Shown: piece after piece, positions 9,844 through 33,678 of the stretch
Layout: each line of letters starts with the position of its first letter
Position numbering within the stretch: the first letter of the stretch is position 1
Source of the DNA: Cucumis sativus
Taxonomy: Eukaryota; Streptophyta; Magnoliopsida; Cucurbitales; Cucurbitaceae
Length of the DNA: 64,000 nucleotides
Assembly (NCBI RefSeq): GCF_000004075.3
Contig: NC_026659.2
Span: 26,430,272-26,494,271, forward strand
Direction: 5' to 3'
The notes under the pieces: model-generated
Seen by the model: the letters and a program-made list of their open reading frames with translations, nothing else
Told to the model about the DNA's origin: nothing
Databases searched by the model: none
Position numbers and translations under genes: made by a program

Positions 9844-10434
9844 ATGGCTTCCCCACCAGACCCTTCTGATCTTGCTTCTGCCCTCGAAAGGCTTCTTCTC
9901 AACAGAGATGTCTCTCTCATCGCACCCCTTTTCTTAGGTTTCGCCTCTATGGTCCGTTCATCTCAAAATCAAGAAAGTGATCCTACACCCACTACTTTGC
10001 CTGATCGATTCATCTTCTTCAACCCCTTTTCCCATCAATTAATGGTGGTTCAAGCCACTCCCAAGCACGGCCAACCCCCGGCCTCTAAAGCTTCCATTAA
10101 AGCTATGCCGTCTCTCCCTGTTTCTGAAGTTACTGAATGTGTGATTTGTTTGGACGAGATTGAAGTCGGTCGTCTCGCTAAACAAATGCCTTGTAACCAT
10201 AAATTTCACGGTGACTGTATTCAGAAATGGTTGGAGTTACATGGGTCTTGCCCTGTTTGTAGATATCAGATGCCAATTGATGGTGATGATGAAGGGAAGA
10301 AGGTTGGTGATGAAGGGGCAGAGAGTAGGGGAGAAACAGAGATTTGGGTTAGTTTTTCTTTTGATCATAGCATTGGAAATGGGGAATCCGTTCAAACCCC
10401 TTCTACTGAATCTGATCATTCTTATGTACAGTGA
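9844..10434 (+). CDS. RING-H2 E3 ubiquitin ligase, MPSR1-like
   Basis: Single-exon gene of 196 residues, starting at the first ATG after a CTT-rich leader. The RING-H2 finger spans 99-139 with all eight ligands: C99, C102, C117, H119, H122, C125, C136, C139, and the conserved W129 that contacts E2 enzymes. The N-terminal 95 residues lack known domains; the tail after 145 is acidic and polar. No membrane segment or signal peptide is seen, so it is likely cytosolic or nuclear. Arabidopsis At1g26800 (MPSR1), an intronless RING-H2 ligase that senses misfolded proteins and helps keep the proteasome working, is the neighbour of GALT1 in that genome. The same adjacency here supports orthology. The RING call is firm; the MPSR1 assignment rests on position, size and lack of introns. 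Confidence 0.88.
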   Translation: MASPPDPSDLASALERLLLNRDVSLIAPLFLGFASMVRSSQNQESDPTPTTLPDRFIFFNPFSHQLMVVQATPKHGQPPASKASIKAMPSLPVSEVTECVICLDEIEVGRLAKQMPCNHKFHGDCIQKWLELHGSCPVCRYQMPIDGDDEGKKVGDEGAESRGETEIWVSFSFDHSIGNGESVQTPSTESDHSYVQ

Positions 10435-10798: not shown

Positions 10799-11222
10799 TC
10801 AGACTTTCCCGGTTGGCTTTGGAGTATGTCGAGGATTAGCTCCAAATATTTGATAGTCATTGAACTGCAAATCCATTCTGCCATTCCACAAATTCTCCAG
10901 TGGCTGATTCTTCTGCCATTGAAGAAATCGATCAGGCCTAAATCATTTCTATAAATTGAGTGTACATATATATTTATATATACCTGGTTTGTAGCTTGGG
11001 AAGCTGGAAAGTCTTGACCAAGATGGATCATGACTGTTGCCCCTGTGGATAAGGAATAGGGAGACTTATTAAGATGAGGTAAGAATTTTAAAGGAAGTAA
11101 TTTCACTAAACAAAGTTTGAGGATTGTATACTTGATGCAGAGACAGTATTGAAGAAGATGATCAGTAAAGAGACAAGGAAAAAACTCATAACCAAGTGTT
11201 GGGTTTGGTCTGCCATTTTCAT
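10799..11222 (-). CDS. PSY-like sulfated peptide hormone precursor
   Basis: Three small exons on the minus strand, 11222-11132, 11042-10984 and 10912-10799, join in phase to 87 residues. Residues 1-30 make a signal peptide: a short polar start, then a hydrophobic core (SFFLVSLLIIFF) ending near A29. The middle is unremarkable. The C-terminus carries NDYQIFGANPRHTP at 68-81, which fits the PSY (plant peptide containing sulfated tyrosine) pattern of an acidic residue before Tyr followed by A-N-P-x-H-x-P. Y70, preceded by D69, is the expected target of tyrosylprotein sulfotransferase; R62 may mark processing. PSY peptides are secreted and act in cell expansion and stress trade-offs through LRR receptor kinases. 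The TATA-like run at 11257-11266 leaves a very short leader. Alternative start: the ATG two codons in. No exon exceeds 40 codons, so ORF scans miss this gene. Confidence 0.78.
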
Positions 11223-11242
11223 TACACAGTTTTGATCTTCAT
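11222..11242 (-). promoter_or_regulatory. Six-codon uORF ending in TAATG on the PSY-like start
   Basis: On the minus strand an ATG at 11242 opens a six-codon frame (MKIKTV) whose TAA stop overlaps the main ATG by one base (TAATG). Such stop-start overlap can couple translation of the two frames. Whether it lies in the mRNA depends on the start site; a TATA-like CATATATATAC sits 15-25 bases upstream, which is close. Confidence 0.5.
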
Positions 11243-13685
11243 CCACTTATAACTCTCATATATATACTGGTAAACGGGTTTGTGAATTGAAGCACATAGA
11301 AATGTTTCTGGAAGATTACCCAACTTTTAAACTTTTTTTTCTTTAGATTTCAAAGTCACAACGTGAGTGGGGATTACAGAAAGTGATAAAATAATGAGTA
11401 GACTTTTAACAAAAGGGGAAAAAACTAACCTTACCCACTTCTTAGAACGCAGTTATAATATCAGAAATGATGAGCAAATTGTCTTGTTTCATGACTTTTT
11501 TAAAGGCCAGTTTCTAAAGGATTGAAGACTGAAAAGGAATACGGGAAGAGAAGTGAATCAAGAAAAGTAATGGAGTTTGATCCACCATGGAAGCTAATTA
11601 GTGGAGAATGAGAAAGAAGTCAATTCTACTGACAAATTTTAAGAATGAAGAGAAAGAGACGATAGAAAACAAAACAAGAAATGGGTGAGAAATTCTGAGT
11701 GGGAAGAAGAAGGAAAATCTGAAAAATGATGATGAACAAATTTGAAAAACCATTTTGGTCAACCTTGTAATGGATTGTGAACGAGAATTTTACAGTCGAA
11801 TATAAGCACTGACTACAATTTGTCATCCCATCTTGTCGGCCAAAACAAACTCATAAACTCTTCTTAAACTTTGGACGCTTATATGAAATATTATTCTTGT
11901 TTCACTTCTATTATCAAATATTTGCATATGGGGGAGACTTCCTTCTATTTGAAATAATAGTTTACTCTATCTGTCTATATTCATATTTGAATGCTTCCTT
12001 GTTATTTATTTACATAATTCTATACCATCACCAATCACCATCCCCCTTTTTTGGTAATGTTGAAAAAAAATATCCAAATGCTTCTGTAATACAAAAGTCA
12101 GTTGGACATAACCTTCATGATCTGAACTCTCGATTAAGGTGACCACTTTATAGTATCAGATGATATAGAGAGTTAGTCTAAACATTCAAAAAAGAAGAAG
12201 AAAAGTCTGCTCACATTAAAATTTTAACATAAAATGCTGTTTGAACATTTTTCTTTTTAAATTTTCAATTAATTTCTTAGTTAAATATTACATATCTTAA
12301 TTATTAAGTTGAGTGGTGACGTTTAAAAGTTGCATAAAGTTAGAAACTCCTATTTATACATTAACAAAACCCCATATCATTTTTAATAATAATGTCTCCA
12401 AATGAATAATTAAGTTTTTTTCTTTTTTTTTTTTAAATATTATTTATCAAATTCTAACATTATTTTTCTTATTTTCAAACTCATAAATCATTTTCCTTAA
12501 AAAAGAAGAAGAAGAAGCTTCGAGCCTATTATGAGACTGGCTATACAAAAGAATGTCGAGTCATTATTGGTTATAAAGTTTTAAAATAGAGTAAAATATA
12601 TTTATATATTTGTAAATATTTAGAGAAAATAAATTTCTTATAATATTATTTAATTTATGAAAGGAAGACAATTAATTAATTAGTTATTGTGCCAAAAAAT
12701 CAACTGATCTAGAAGTCTCGATGGATGCCTAATCCAAGTTGTGTAGTGCTAAAGTTTTATTTCATAAGTCAAACTTTTACATTAATTAATTATGTTATCA
12801 AAACTTTATTCAAAGCCCCAATGATGATCAATTTATTTCCACACGCTTTCATCCTTCTAATTCTCACACACACACACATATATTTCTGTAGGGTTCGATT
12901 TTCCATTTCAATATCTTCTCGTCATCATCATTTTTATCATATATATGTGAAAATATTGTTATATACTATGAAACAAATACATTCTAAATTATAAGTTCTA
13001 TGCTATATTTAATTTTTTTTTCTTTTTGTTTATTAGGCTTCTCAATTTTATTTATTTATCTGTTTTTATAAAAATCATATCTTCATAATAGAAATAAATT
13101 TAAATTAAATGACTGTCCATTTGTTGTGTATTATTATCGATTGTGTGAAAATTGATTTTATACATATTTAAACATCTAGTTAGTAAGTATTAAACTTGAT
13201 AGTAAAGATTTATTTGATACAAAAATGGAAAATGTTAAGGTTCAAATTATAAATCTTAATAAAGTAAAGAAATTAAATGGATGTGATCTTGACTAATCCA
13301 ACAACATGACCAATTATTGATTCCCTTTGAAAGTTAACCTATTAAAAATTTTATATAACGTTAAATAGACAAAATCTTAAACTTTCTTGAATCCAATTTA
13401 TACTTTAATTAGCATTACAAAATATATACTGATTTTAGTTATTCAAGTTAATACAACACTAGTAATAACCAAAACATTGTCAATATTTGGAAACTCACAC
13501 ACAAGTGTCTTTAATACCACTTTAAGTTGCTTCTCTGAACTCGAGTACATTTTAATGCCTAACTTGTAAGAAGCACTTTGCTCAGCTAAGCACGAAAGAG
13601 ATTAAAGTTATCTATTTTCCATTGAGTTATCGATATAAGGTTGCCTAGCAGACCCTACCTTCGTTCAAAGTTACATGTAATGGCA

Positions 13686-17764: not shown

Positions 17765-19191
17765 ATGGCTGAAGTTGATATTAGAGATCCAATCATAAAG
17801 TTGTTTGGGAAAACCATTTCTTTGCCATTGAACCATCTTGATTTGCCTTCGGATTCCAAGTTTCCTTCTTCAGAAACTACTGAAAAGGTAGATCTTTTTT
17901 GTCAGAATTGGATATGTGTTTCTTTCTTTTTTAAATATGTGTTTTGAATTTTGGTTTAGTTTGTGTTTGATCCTTTGTTCTTAAAGATTTTGAATTTGTC
18001 AACTTTCTTCCACAGGAAACTTCATGTGAAGAATTGGGATTAGAGAAACGGGGGAATAGCAGTGGAAACCAAATCACAGATCAAACAACATCAGGAGTAA
18101 GTGAGAATCCATTAGAAGAAAGAGAAATCTCATCGCCAAAAGCTTCCAAAAATGAAGAACAAAGTGAAACAAGTAATTCCCCTGACAACAAAACCTCAAA
18201 AAAGCCAGACAAAATCCTTCCTTGCCCTCGATGTAACAGCATGGACACCAAATTCTGTTACTTCAACAATTACAATGTCAATCAACCTCGTCACTTTTGC
18301 AAGAATTGCCAAAGATATTGGACAGCCGGTGGGACCATGAGAAACGTTCCGGTTGGTGCCGGCCGACGAAAGAACAAAAACTCCTCATCTTCACATTTCC
18401 GTCAGTTAATAATTCCCGACGGCGGAAATCACCGCCATCAATTTCTAGATAATAACGGAACCTTTCTCACTTTTGCCTCAGATTCTTCAATTTCCAACTC
18501 ACAGAGCTGTAATCCAAATGGGTTTCTCGTTAATACAGAAAACGGAGATGATCATTCAAGTAAATCTTCAATTACAGCTTCGAATTCATCAGAGAAAGGA
18601 GCTAAAATGGCTTCACAACAATCAATAGCGAAAAACGTTTTCCCTTTTCTGCCTCAATTACAGTCATTTACAGGGCTTTCATTGCCTTATTCTTCAATTC
18701 CTCCACCATCGGCGCCGTTCTACCCGCCGGGGATTCCGGTGTCGTATTACCCTTCACAGCCGTACTGGGGCTACCTAGCGCCGCCGTCTTTGACACTAAT
18801 TAATCCCAACGGTCAAAATTCTTCTACGAATTCCTGTGTGTTGGGGAAACGTTTAAGAGATGGGAAATTGGTTAAGAGTCCATCAAATACAGAATCTGAG
18901 ATTGGTAAACAGAGGAATTATGAAGAACTCTGTTTGGGGATACCAAGGACAATGAAAGTGGATGATCCAAATGAAGCAGCAAAGAGTTGTATATGGTCAA
19001 CACTAGGAATTAAGAATGATAAAAAAGCTGGTGGTGGAAGTACAAGTACAACCATCAATGGCGGTAGTCTTTTTGTCTCTTTACAACAATCTACAAAGGG
19101 AAAAGAAGAAACCCAGATTGAAAGTTGGTCGCTTTTACAGGCAAATCCAGCAGCCTTTTCTCGGGCTTTGAAATTCCGAGAGATCGTTTAG
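17765..19191 (+). CDS. Cycling Dof factor (CDF), CDF5/CDF6-like transcription factor
   Basis: Two exons, 17765-17887 and 18016-19191, joining in phase 0 to 432 residues. The start is the ATG at 17765, whose [10 protein letters not shown] opening is typical of CDF proteins. The Dof zinc finger spans about 107-163, with the four Cys at 111, 114, 136 and 139 and the RYWTAGG and GAGRRKNK motifs. Two C-terminal CDF signatures are present: IWSTLGIKN at about 367-375 and [13 protein letters not shown] at about 418-430, the regions linked to binding of GIGANTEA and FKF1. CDF proteins repress CONSTANS and FT in the morning and are degraded through FKF1-GIGANTEA under long days. Neighbouring MYB117/MYB105 and MPSR1-like genes match the Arabidopsis CDF6 and CDF5 loci. 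Single-frame reading from 18034 misses the first exon and six further codons. Confidence 0.93.
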
Positions 19192-22441: not shown

Positions 22442-24617
22442 TCATGTGGTAGCTCCAACTCCAAGAAAATCTATAAATCTTGGTGATTGTTTTCTTCCCT
22501 CTACCGTTACCGACGAAGATCCCTCAACGCCGCCGTTTGATGGTGGCACCGCCGTGTTATACGTTTCATACTGGTGGTGGCCGTGACTTCGTGGTACTAA
22601 AAATCCATTGCTTGTTCCCTCCCAAAATCTGCTCTTCGGATCTGCACACCATAATCAATCAATCAATGCCAAACTTAATCAATTTAAACTGATCTATATT
22701 ATTATTATATTTCTTTTTGTTTAGTTTAGTATAAAATCTTTACATCAATATGTTAAAAAAAATATGATAAATTATGTTAGTGTAAGCATGGTGTGATAGT
22801 TATTTATGGTTCAATATAAACACTACTATTATACACCCAAGTTTTTATGTTTAATCTAAGTTTTCAAAAACTAAAGAACGAAACTTTTTAGAACTACGTT
22901 AGAAATTCAGTCTTGTTTCTTACAAAGGTAAAAGAGTAATTATTAGAATAAAACAATAAATTTTGAAAGCAAATAATCATTATCAAATAGAATTTTCTTA
23001 ATCATTTGGGCCTAGAAAAGATAAAAACATCTTAATCATTTGTAAATTCAACAACCTATTTACCAAGACTATGAAAAATTAGAACAAAACCCAACAAAGA
23101 TTTTCTCAATAATAATTATTAAAGAAGTGAGGTTGAATAATTGAAACCAAAAAAAAAACTTAAGTGGATAAAATACTATAAATTTAGATTCATTTTGATT
23201 TTCGAAAATTAGCCGTATATTGGTTCTTAATTTCTAGCTTTGCATATTTCTTAAGTAAAAAAGAAAGAAGAAGTTTGAGCCAAAATGATCAAGTTTTTGA
23301 ACTATTTAACTTAATACATATAGTTTTTGAAAGCATTAACAAAAAAACAGAAAATAAAAAAAAATAAAAAAAAGAAGTAAAAGATTATTCACAACTTAAT
23401 TTTTGAAAACATAAGTAGATGTCAATAACAAAACCAAAAATATTAAAGTGAAAAGAATGTTTACTCTTAATTTTCGAAAACTAAGAATCAAAATGCTTAT
23501 CATATACCAACCCAACTTATGAAAGAAAAAAAATTCAAAAGCTTGCAAATGGAGTGTTATATATATATATACATACACACACAAAACTAAGAAAAAGTTA
23601 ATTTTTAGAATGAGAAAAAATTTAAACCTGGAAGAACATTAAGAGTTGAAAGATGAGCACATGAGTTGAAGTAAGGATTGTTGGGAGTGGTGTTATAATT
23701 ACTTGACAACGTTTCTCCTCCACCACCAATAACCATTTGTCTTAAAAATCCATAATCAACGCAACCCTCAAAATTCCCAAAAGAAGAAGAAGAAGTTGTT
23801 GTGATTGTTGTTGCTGCTGCTGCTGTTGTAATTGTATCATGATGATTATGATCTTTAGGAATATTAAGAAAACTCAAATCTTCCTCCATTTTTCTGTAAA
23901 CAGATTGGCTCAATTTCCTCCTTCTATAACACCTTGATTGTTCTCTGTATTTCCTAGCCATTATAACATGCCAATGATTCTTCACTGCATTATCAGTCCT
24001 CCCTGGAAATAGCCTTGCAATCATTGCCCATTTGTTTCCATATATTCTATGTGCTTGCATTAACCTCTCTTCTTCCTCTTCACTAAATGCCCTTCTATTT
24101 ATCCTTGGATCCAATTGATTAAACCATCTCAATCTGCAACTCTTACCTGATGAAAACATAACTCTAACTGGTTAAGACAGAAAAAGCACAACTCGACTAC
24201 TTAAAACAAACTAGCGGGTGTCTTACCGGATCTTCCTTCTAGCTTCTCTGCTATGAGGTTCCAGTTTTGAGGGCCATAAAGAGCTACAAGCTCTCTTAAT
24301 TTAGTGTCCTCTGCTGGCCTCCAATGGCCTCTAGCACAGAGTCTAGATTGAGCTCCTGTACTACTACTGGGGGTGTTATTGGAACAAGAAGTTGGGTTAT
24401 TAGCAGCATTTTGATTCAATCCATCACTGAATTCAGAGCCCCCATTATTGTTGTTGTTGTTGTTGTTGACAATATCAGATTCACAAGAAAATGGGAAGTT
24501 CCAAAAAGCTCTTCCATTGATCTCCTCACAACTTTCTTGAGAAGAAGAAGAGAAAATTGCAGCAGAGTTGAGATCAAGATTGAAACTTTCTTCATCTTCA
24601 TCGATAAACATCCCCAT
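22442..24617 (-). CDS. R2R3-MYB of the LOF1 (MYB117)/MYB105 subgroup
   Basis: Three exons on the minus strand: 24617-24227, 24146-23628, 22641-22442, joining in phase 1 twice to 369 residues. R2 has W99, W119 and W138; R3 has the usual F151 in place of the first Trp, then W170 and W189, with [11 protein letters not shown] in the third helix. The N-terminus has an acidic stretch, an LDLN motif at 14-17 and a run of eight Asn at 51-58. The last exon ends [12 protein letters not shown], the subgroup 21 C-terminal signature; without it the frame runs on to a false stop at 23605. Arabidopsis LOF1 and MYB105 act in lateral organ boundaries and axillary meristem formation. A TATA-like CTATAAATCC lies at 24678-24687, implying a short leader. 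Exact orthology between MYB117 and MYB105 is left open. Confidence 0.92.
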
Positions 24618-33618: not shown

Positions 33619-33678
33619 ATGGTTGAAGAAGAAGAAGAAGAAGAAGAAGAAGAAGAAGAAGAAGAATGGGAAGAGTAA
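33619..33678 (+). promoter_or_regulatory. Poly-glutamate uORF overlapping the AGL30-like start
   Basis: ATG at 33619 opens M-V, then 14 Glu codons from a GAA repeat, then W-E-E and a TAA at 33676-33678. The frame differs from the main ORF and runs past the main ATG at 33666, overlapping it by 13 bases. Ribosomes that start here cannot reinitiate at the main ATG without moving back. Repeat-length changes in whole GAA units leave the frame unchanged. Confidence 0.6.
33625..33666 (+). repeat. (GAA)14 microsatellite ending at the AGL30-like ATG
   Basis: Fourteen perfect GAA units; the last A is the first base of the main start codon. Likely length-variable between accessions. Confidence 0.9.

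Follow-up and report, generated by a model that had tools for sequence, protein, structure and literature searches.

Precursors of the PSY family have been described as secreted proteins that are sulfated on the tyrosine after an aspartate and trimmed by subtilases, with RXLX and RXXL given as the cleavage patterns of SBT6.1 (PMC7913133, section 4.2). The family motif has been defined as DYXXXX[AP]NXXHXP (PMC7913133, section 4.1; PMC11641228), and a length of 60–200 aa has been set for the precursors (PMC11641228). When free of ligand, the receptors PSYR1–3 suppress growth and promote stress responses, and PSY peptides relieve both effects (PMC10519359). PSYR1–3 have been reported as the receptors of all nine Arabidopsis PSYs, whose residues at positions 3–5 of the core vary widely; in the nematode PSY mimics described in the same report, a two-residue insertion between DY and NXXHXP went together with weaker activity of the truncated form (PMC10629525). 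In Arabidopsis, the core of AtPSY6 (AT1G74458) is DYPGSGANNRHTPH (Table 1, PMC11534595) and that of AtPSY8 (AT3G47510) is DYPGSGANNRHLPR (PMC11534595). In tomato xylem sap, mass spectrometry has identified the secreted, sulfated peptides DyPGSGANNRHTp (Solyc03g115950) and DyPSSGANNRHTpSHP (Solyc07g150120), for which the table of that study gives no family name and its main text does not use the word PSY (PMC9028419). For cucumber, a literature search returned no title on the PSY family among the matches listed, and the strings ANPRHTP, GANPRH, and DYQIFG were not found in the literature searched.

The locus considered here lies in a 64-kb stretch of Cucumis sativus DNA (64,000 nt, C5:26430272-26494271; the window) and is referred to as the window PSY gene. 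Its core, DYQIFGANPRHTP, shares with AtPSY6 and AtPSY8 the DY pair, the Gly at position 6, Ala-Asn, Arg-His, and the final Pro, and with AtPSY6 also the Thr, whereas both Arabidopsis peptides have PGS where the window core has QIF, and Asn where it has Pro. When only the cores are compared, identity is 9/13 residues with AtPSY6 and 8/13 with AtPSY8; the peptides of Solyc03g115950 and Solyc07g150120 also have 9/13 core residues in common with the window core, and lack QIF. The PSY6/PSY8-type core DYPGSGANNRH[TL]P is thus not matched, the window core departing from it in QIF and in Pro instead of Asn, four positions in all. Since QIF and Pro set the core apart, leaving 9/13 and 8/13 residues in common, the gene is named PSY6/PSY8-type by descent, with a divergent core. 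Its sequence places it in a known peptide-hormone family, as a divergent member with a variant core, and it is very probably a genuine PSY6/PSY8-type prepropeptide gene, one of three copies derived from old duplications. This reading has its observed base in the motif within an open spliced frame, the paralogues, the Dof neighbour common to them and this gene, exon phases that agree between the drawn models, and silent changes in codons of conserved residues.

The three-exon gene and its splice models

On the minus strand, exons of 91 + 59 + 114 nt join into a spliced frame that encodes an 87-aa precursor, MKMADQTQHLVMSFFLVSLLIIFFNTVSASRATVMIHLGQDFPASQATNQKNQPLENLWNGRMDLQFNDYQIFGANPRHTPKPTGKV, with GRMDLQFNDYQIFGANPRHTPKPTGKV at its C-terminal end and the Tyr of the Asp-Tyr site as residue 70. 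The features of the gene, in window coordinates, are the following:

11259..11266, minus strand: TATA-box-like element TATATATA, beginning 44 nt before the first ATG; putative function
11132..11222, minus strand: exon 1, 91 nt, with the start codon and a signal-peptide-like stretch, MKMADQTQHLVMSFFLVSLLIIFFNTVSAS
11043..11131, minus strand: intron 1, 89 nt, GT-AG (C1 paralogue model 88 nt, C3 paralogue model 105 nt)
10984..11042, minus strand: exon 2, 59 nt, propeptide spacer ending in phase 0 (C1 model 62 nt, C3 model 53 nt)
10913..10983, minus strand: intron 2, 71 nt, GT-AG, with a possible other donor at 10966 and other acceptors at 10903 and 10864
10799..10912, minus strand: exon 3, 114 nt including the stop, KNQPLENLWNGRMDLQFNDYQIFGANPRHTPKPTGKV
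10820..10858, minus strand: PSY core DYQIFGANPRHTP, assigned by motif, with Tyr70 as predicted sulfation site

The coordinates, the GT-AG introns, and the spliced frame agree with the 91/59/114-nt model of 87 aa with Y70 that had been proposed in a sequence-only reading of this DNA. The modelled frame contains no stop or frameshift, and an Arg codon is split at the end of exon 1, which is in phase 1 (CAA/GTATAC). The start context of the second ATG (11216), AAAATGGC, is better than that of the first, and this codon may be the true start. AT-rich DNA yields TATA-like words by chance. Upstream of the start codon, and downstream of the TATA-like element, there is a six-codon frame, MKIKTV (11222–11242, minus strand), whose stop overlaps the main ATG (TAATG); the transcript may begin only downstream of this frame.

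Three-exon models of the gene were enumerated mechanically and filtered for a hydrophobic core, for a GTA donor with a YAG acceptor, and for the split Arg codon. The enumeration gave 1743 possible models, with a hydrophobic core in 295; GTA donors and YAG acceptors were found in 45 of these 295, each with phases 1 and 0, and the split Arg codon in 15 of the 45. Donor 11132 and acceptor 11042 are common to all 15, which differ in the start ATG (11222, 11216, or 11189), the exon-2 donor (10984 or 10966), and the exon-3 acceptor (10912, 10903, or 10864). The exact splice model is therefore not unique. The 10984/10912 junction agrees best with the C1 paralogue, because exon 3 then begins with 13 residues that end in GRM, the same number as in that gene.

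The motif DYXXXX[AP]NXXHXP occurs once in the six frames of the window, as DYQIFGANPRHTP in this gene, and in none of 300 window-sized sequences simulated under a first-order Markov model. This null totals 19.2 Mb, compared with a genome of 226.6 Mb (226,625,048 bases) in which a few chance motifs are possible; since it is too small to exclude chance copies genome-wide, support was sought outside the motif. A crude DNA pattern, AAYCCNMGNCAY, was uninformative (786 forward and 764 reverse matches vs 647 and 657 in the reversed control). In the precursor, the core occupies residues 69–81 of 87, near the C-terminus, and the length falls within the 60–200 aa accepted for PSY precursors. A simple test revealed an N-terminal hydrophobic core (12-residue Kyte-Doolittle mean of 2.89) followed by the small residues VSA, so the N-terminus appears signal-peptide-like, as in a PSY precursor. 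A Pfam search with the precursor gave no family match, the single match (E 0.15) being at chance level and to an unrelated family, and a PDB search gave nothing useful, with eight matches at E 0.7 to 1.6.

Paralogues and the Dof neighbourhood

A six-frame genome search with the 87-aa protein returned five places, namely its own three exons and two off-locus matches with weak scores, C1:3601548-3601634 (E 0.216) and C3:33253353-33253451 (E 1.14). Both encode PSY motifs, GRMVVALNDYPGSGANNRHTPRP on C1 and GRLILENNDYPGTGANNHHDPKSPAKP on C3. When 40 aa of the C1 paralogue were used as query, three places were found, i.e., itself, the C3 gene (E 9.1e-4), and the window PSY gene (E 0.044). Short sequences account for the weak search scores among the three PSY genes. 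The paralogue models and the Dof gene of the window are these:

C1:3601524-3602407: C1 paralogue (L014), 91 aa, exons of 88/62/126 nt, model drawn by eye
C3:33253347-33253826: C3 paralogue (L015), 93 aa, exons of 91/53/138 nt, model drawn by eye
18034-19191 of the window, plus strand: Dof gene

The three models agree in a first junction of phase 1, with the split Arg codon after CAA/GTA, and a second junction of phase 0, and all have a middle exon of 53–62 nt. The window PSY gene guided the drawing of the C1 and C3 models by hand, and the agreement in phase is no independent test, since phases 1 and 0 are found in all 45 well-spliced models of the window PSY gene. Both paralogues resemble the window PSY gene in the upstream GR[ML], the NDY core, and the Dof neighbour, and differ from it in having PG[ST] and ANN in their core. 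Homology to known PSY genes may extend beyond the motif: the likeness to L014 and L015 is clear in architecture and neighbourhood and weak by E-value. These paralogues support the earlier proposal of a three-exon gene for a secreted PSY-like precursor.

Over 25 aligned codons around the core, the window PSY gene shares 14 residues with the C1 paralogue, six of them (Gly, Ala, Asn, Arg, His, and Thr) through different synonymous codons, and 12 with the C3 paralogue, again six through different synonymous codons. For exon 3, Ka/Ks was 0.38/1.12 over 28 codons and 0.48/1.6 over 32 codons, values that rest on few codons with silent sites near saturation. Within the limits of so few codons, the comparison points to selection on the protein. 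Ks gave no usable date, its values being saturated or near 2, and the duplication can be called no more than old.

The search with the 87-aa protein was not exhaustive, since it missed three PSY1-type genes at C1:22.23-22.25 Mb that were found with the AtPSY1 peptide; a search with the AtPSY5 core gave no match. These genes (L032, L033, and L034; C1:22234251-22249682) have the PSY1-type cores NDYSDPGANPRHDP, NDYPDPGANPRHNP, and NDYPDPGANPRHRP and lie on one strand within about 15 kb, apparently as a tandem cluster. Like the window PSY gene, the PSY1-type genes (AtPSY1 and L032–L034) have DY, ANPRH, and the final Pro, and L032–L034 also GANPRH; unlike it, they have S/P-D-P at positions 3–5.

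A genome search with the window Dof protein gave 38 rows including itself, and at five loci both its N- and C-terminal parts were matched; these five loci, the window Dof and four others, are taken by us to be CDF-like. PSY and Dof genes are separated by 6.8 kb in the window and by 4.7 and 12.2 kb on C1 and C3, respectively, so that a Dof neighbour, a feature proposed here for the PSY6/PSY8 type, is present at all three loci in the genome. The two genes diverge in the window and on C1, and both are on the minus strand on C3. By a rough estimate, the stretches no more than 13 kb from any of the five Dof loci make up about 0.06% of the genome, and it is therefore very unlikely that two of two PSY paralogues would stand beside such loci by chance. 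The closest relative of the window Dof is C3:33708127, where no PSY match was found; the Dof neighbours of the C1 and C3 paralogues rank second and fourth among the other Dof loci. In addition, the best of 47 non-self matches of the MADS gene at 33627 falls in the C1 PSY-Dof block. An expansin was considered as fourth colinear gene of this block (PSY, Dof, MADS) and rejected, its C1 counterpart ranking only 16th of 23 non-self matches.

Other genes of the surroundings were also recorded. A further Dof relative, C1:1516663-1517835, lies about 12 kb from C1:1529411-1529728, where the expansin of the window has its best non-self match; the two loci perhaps belong to a further copy of the block, in which no PSY gene was detected. 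Tail to tail with the window PSY gene lies a RING-H2 finger gene (9844-10434, plus strand, 196 aa; zf-RING_2 in Pfam, E 6.9e-16), its end 365 nt away from the PSY stop. Two frames at 23605-24617 (minus strand) together presumably form one R2R3-MYB-like gene.

In Arabidopsis, PSY8 is At3g47510 (PMC7913133, Table 2) and CDF3 is At3g47500 (PMC7732579), i.e., adjacent by locus number, whereas PSY6 (At1g74458) seems to have no such position, judged by number only. The PSY-CDF pair would therefore predate the split of the cucumber and Arabidopsis lineages.

The variant core and its possible readings

The core was compared with 17 others, nine from Arabidopsis, three from tomato, and five from paralogues, which form a small and partly related sample. 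Tomato Solyc06g052020 (DYDNAGpNTKHD), which lacks the last position, was left out, and it has no Q, I, or F at positions 3–5 either. In these 17 comparators, position 3 is P, G, D, S, or A, position 4 is D, E, G, or S, and position 5 is P, S, T, or A; none of them has Gln at position 3, Ile at position 4, or Phe at position 5, and the view of QIF as unusual, held in the sequence-only reading, stands. The same reading had also regarded Thr in place of the usual Asp as unusual. This mark of divergence was discarded, as HTP is found in AtPSY6 (PMC11534595), in the two sulfated tomato peptides (PMC9028419), and in the C1 paralogue. Pro is present at position 9 in 7 of the 17 comparators and Thr at position 12 in 4, and both residues are therefore ordinary in the window core.

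That the motif stands in a chance open frame could be argued from the size of the genome, since six required residues with wild cards can arise in 226.6 Mb, and from the 1743 possible splice models. Against this, the likeness to the paralogues extends beyond the motif (GRM, spacing, KP), both genome matches are PSY genes by motif, and all three lie near one of the presumed CDF-like Dof genes; on the paralogues and the Dof neighbourhood a chance frame was rejected, and we regard it as extremely improbable. The window PSY gene is thus probably a real gene. It could still be a paralogue under relaxed constraint, with an open and perhaps weakly expressed frame in which QIF reflects decay and not a new job. 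The absence of Q, I, and F at these positions from all 17 comparators and the retention of PG[ST] by the C1 and C3 paralogues speak for such decay, but all residues required by the motif are present, several with silent codon changes, the modelled frame is free of stops and frameshifts, and Ka/Ks is below 1; relaxed constraint is accordingly rather unlikely.

Another possibility is that the peptide is a PSY ligand with changed receptor preference, as suggested in the sequence-only reading, or with altered potency. Bulky hydrophobic Ile-Phe replaces small, acidic, or proline residues, and the insertion in the nematode mimics went with weaker activity, so this stretch can matter (PMC10629525). 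However, Arabidopsis PSYs that are very different at these positions are reported to share three receptors (PMC10629525) and, since this is so, a residue change at positions 3–5 alone predicts no new receptor. A changed preference or potency is conceivable, if unlikely, and the shared receptors of the nine Arabidopsis PSYs favour by analogy a plain reading of QIF (PMC10629525). A more far-reaching proposal would be a lineage-specific ligand whose QIF core either arose under selection for a new receptor pairing or lets it compete with ordinary PSY peptides at PSYR receptors, the gene having been retained since the old duplication beside a CDF clock-output regulator; this we hold to be quite improbable.

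Predicted maturation and significance

For the preferred reading as a genuine PSY6/PSY8-type gene, the expression of the gene, the cleavage, sulfation, and receptor binding of its product, and its effect are expected by analogy with the family. The signal peptide would direct the precursor into the secretory pathway, and a tyrosylprotein sulfotransferase would sulfate Tyr70 at the Asp-Tyr site, a modification predicted from other PSY peptides. Subtilases would trim the precursor; RMDL, which stands shortly before the core, conforms to the RXXL pattern of SBT6.1, whereas RMVV in the C1 paralogue does not. The mature peptide is likely to have about 13 aa or a few more, and in this scheme DYQIFGANPRHTP, of about 13 residues, would be released to the cell wall space. 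There it would bind PSYR-type LRR receptor kinases and thereby reduce stress signalling and allow growth.

Annotation easily overlooks short peptide hormones with several exons, and PSY peptides determine how growth is balanced against the stress response. A natural core with bulky hydrophobic residues may serve as a probe of how much of the variable part is read by the receptors. Finally, the repeated PSY-Dof neighbourhood would offer a route to orthologues that are barely detected by sequence search (E 0.04 to 1.1).
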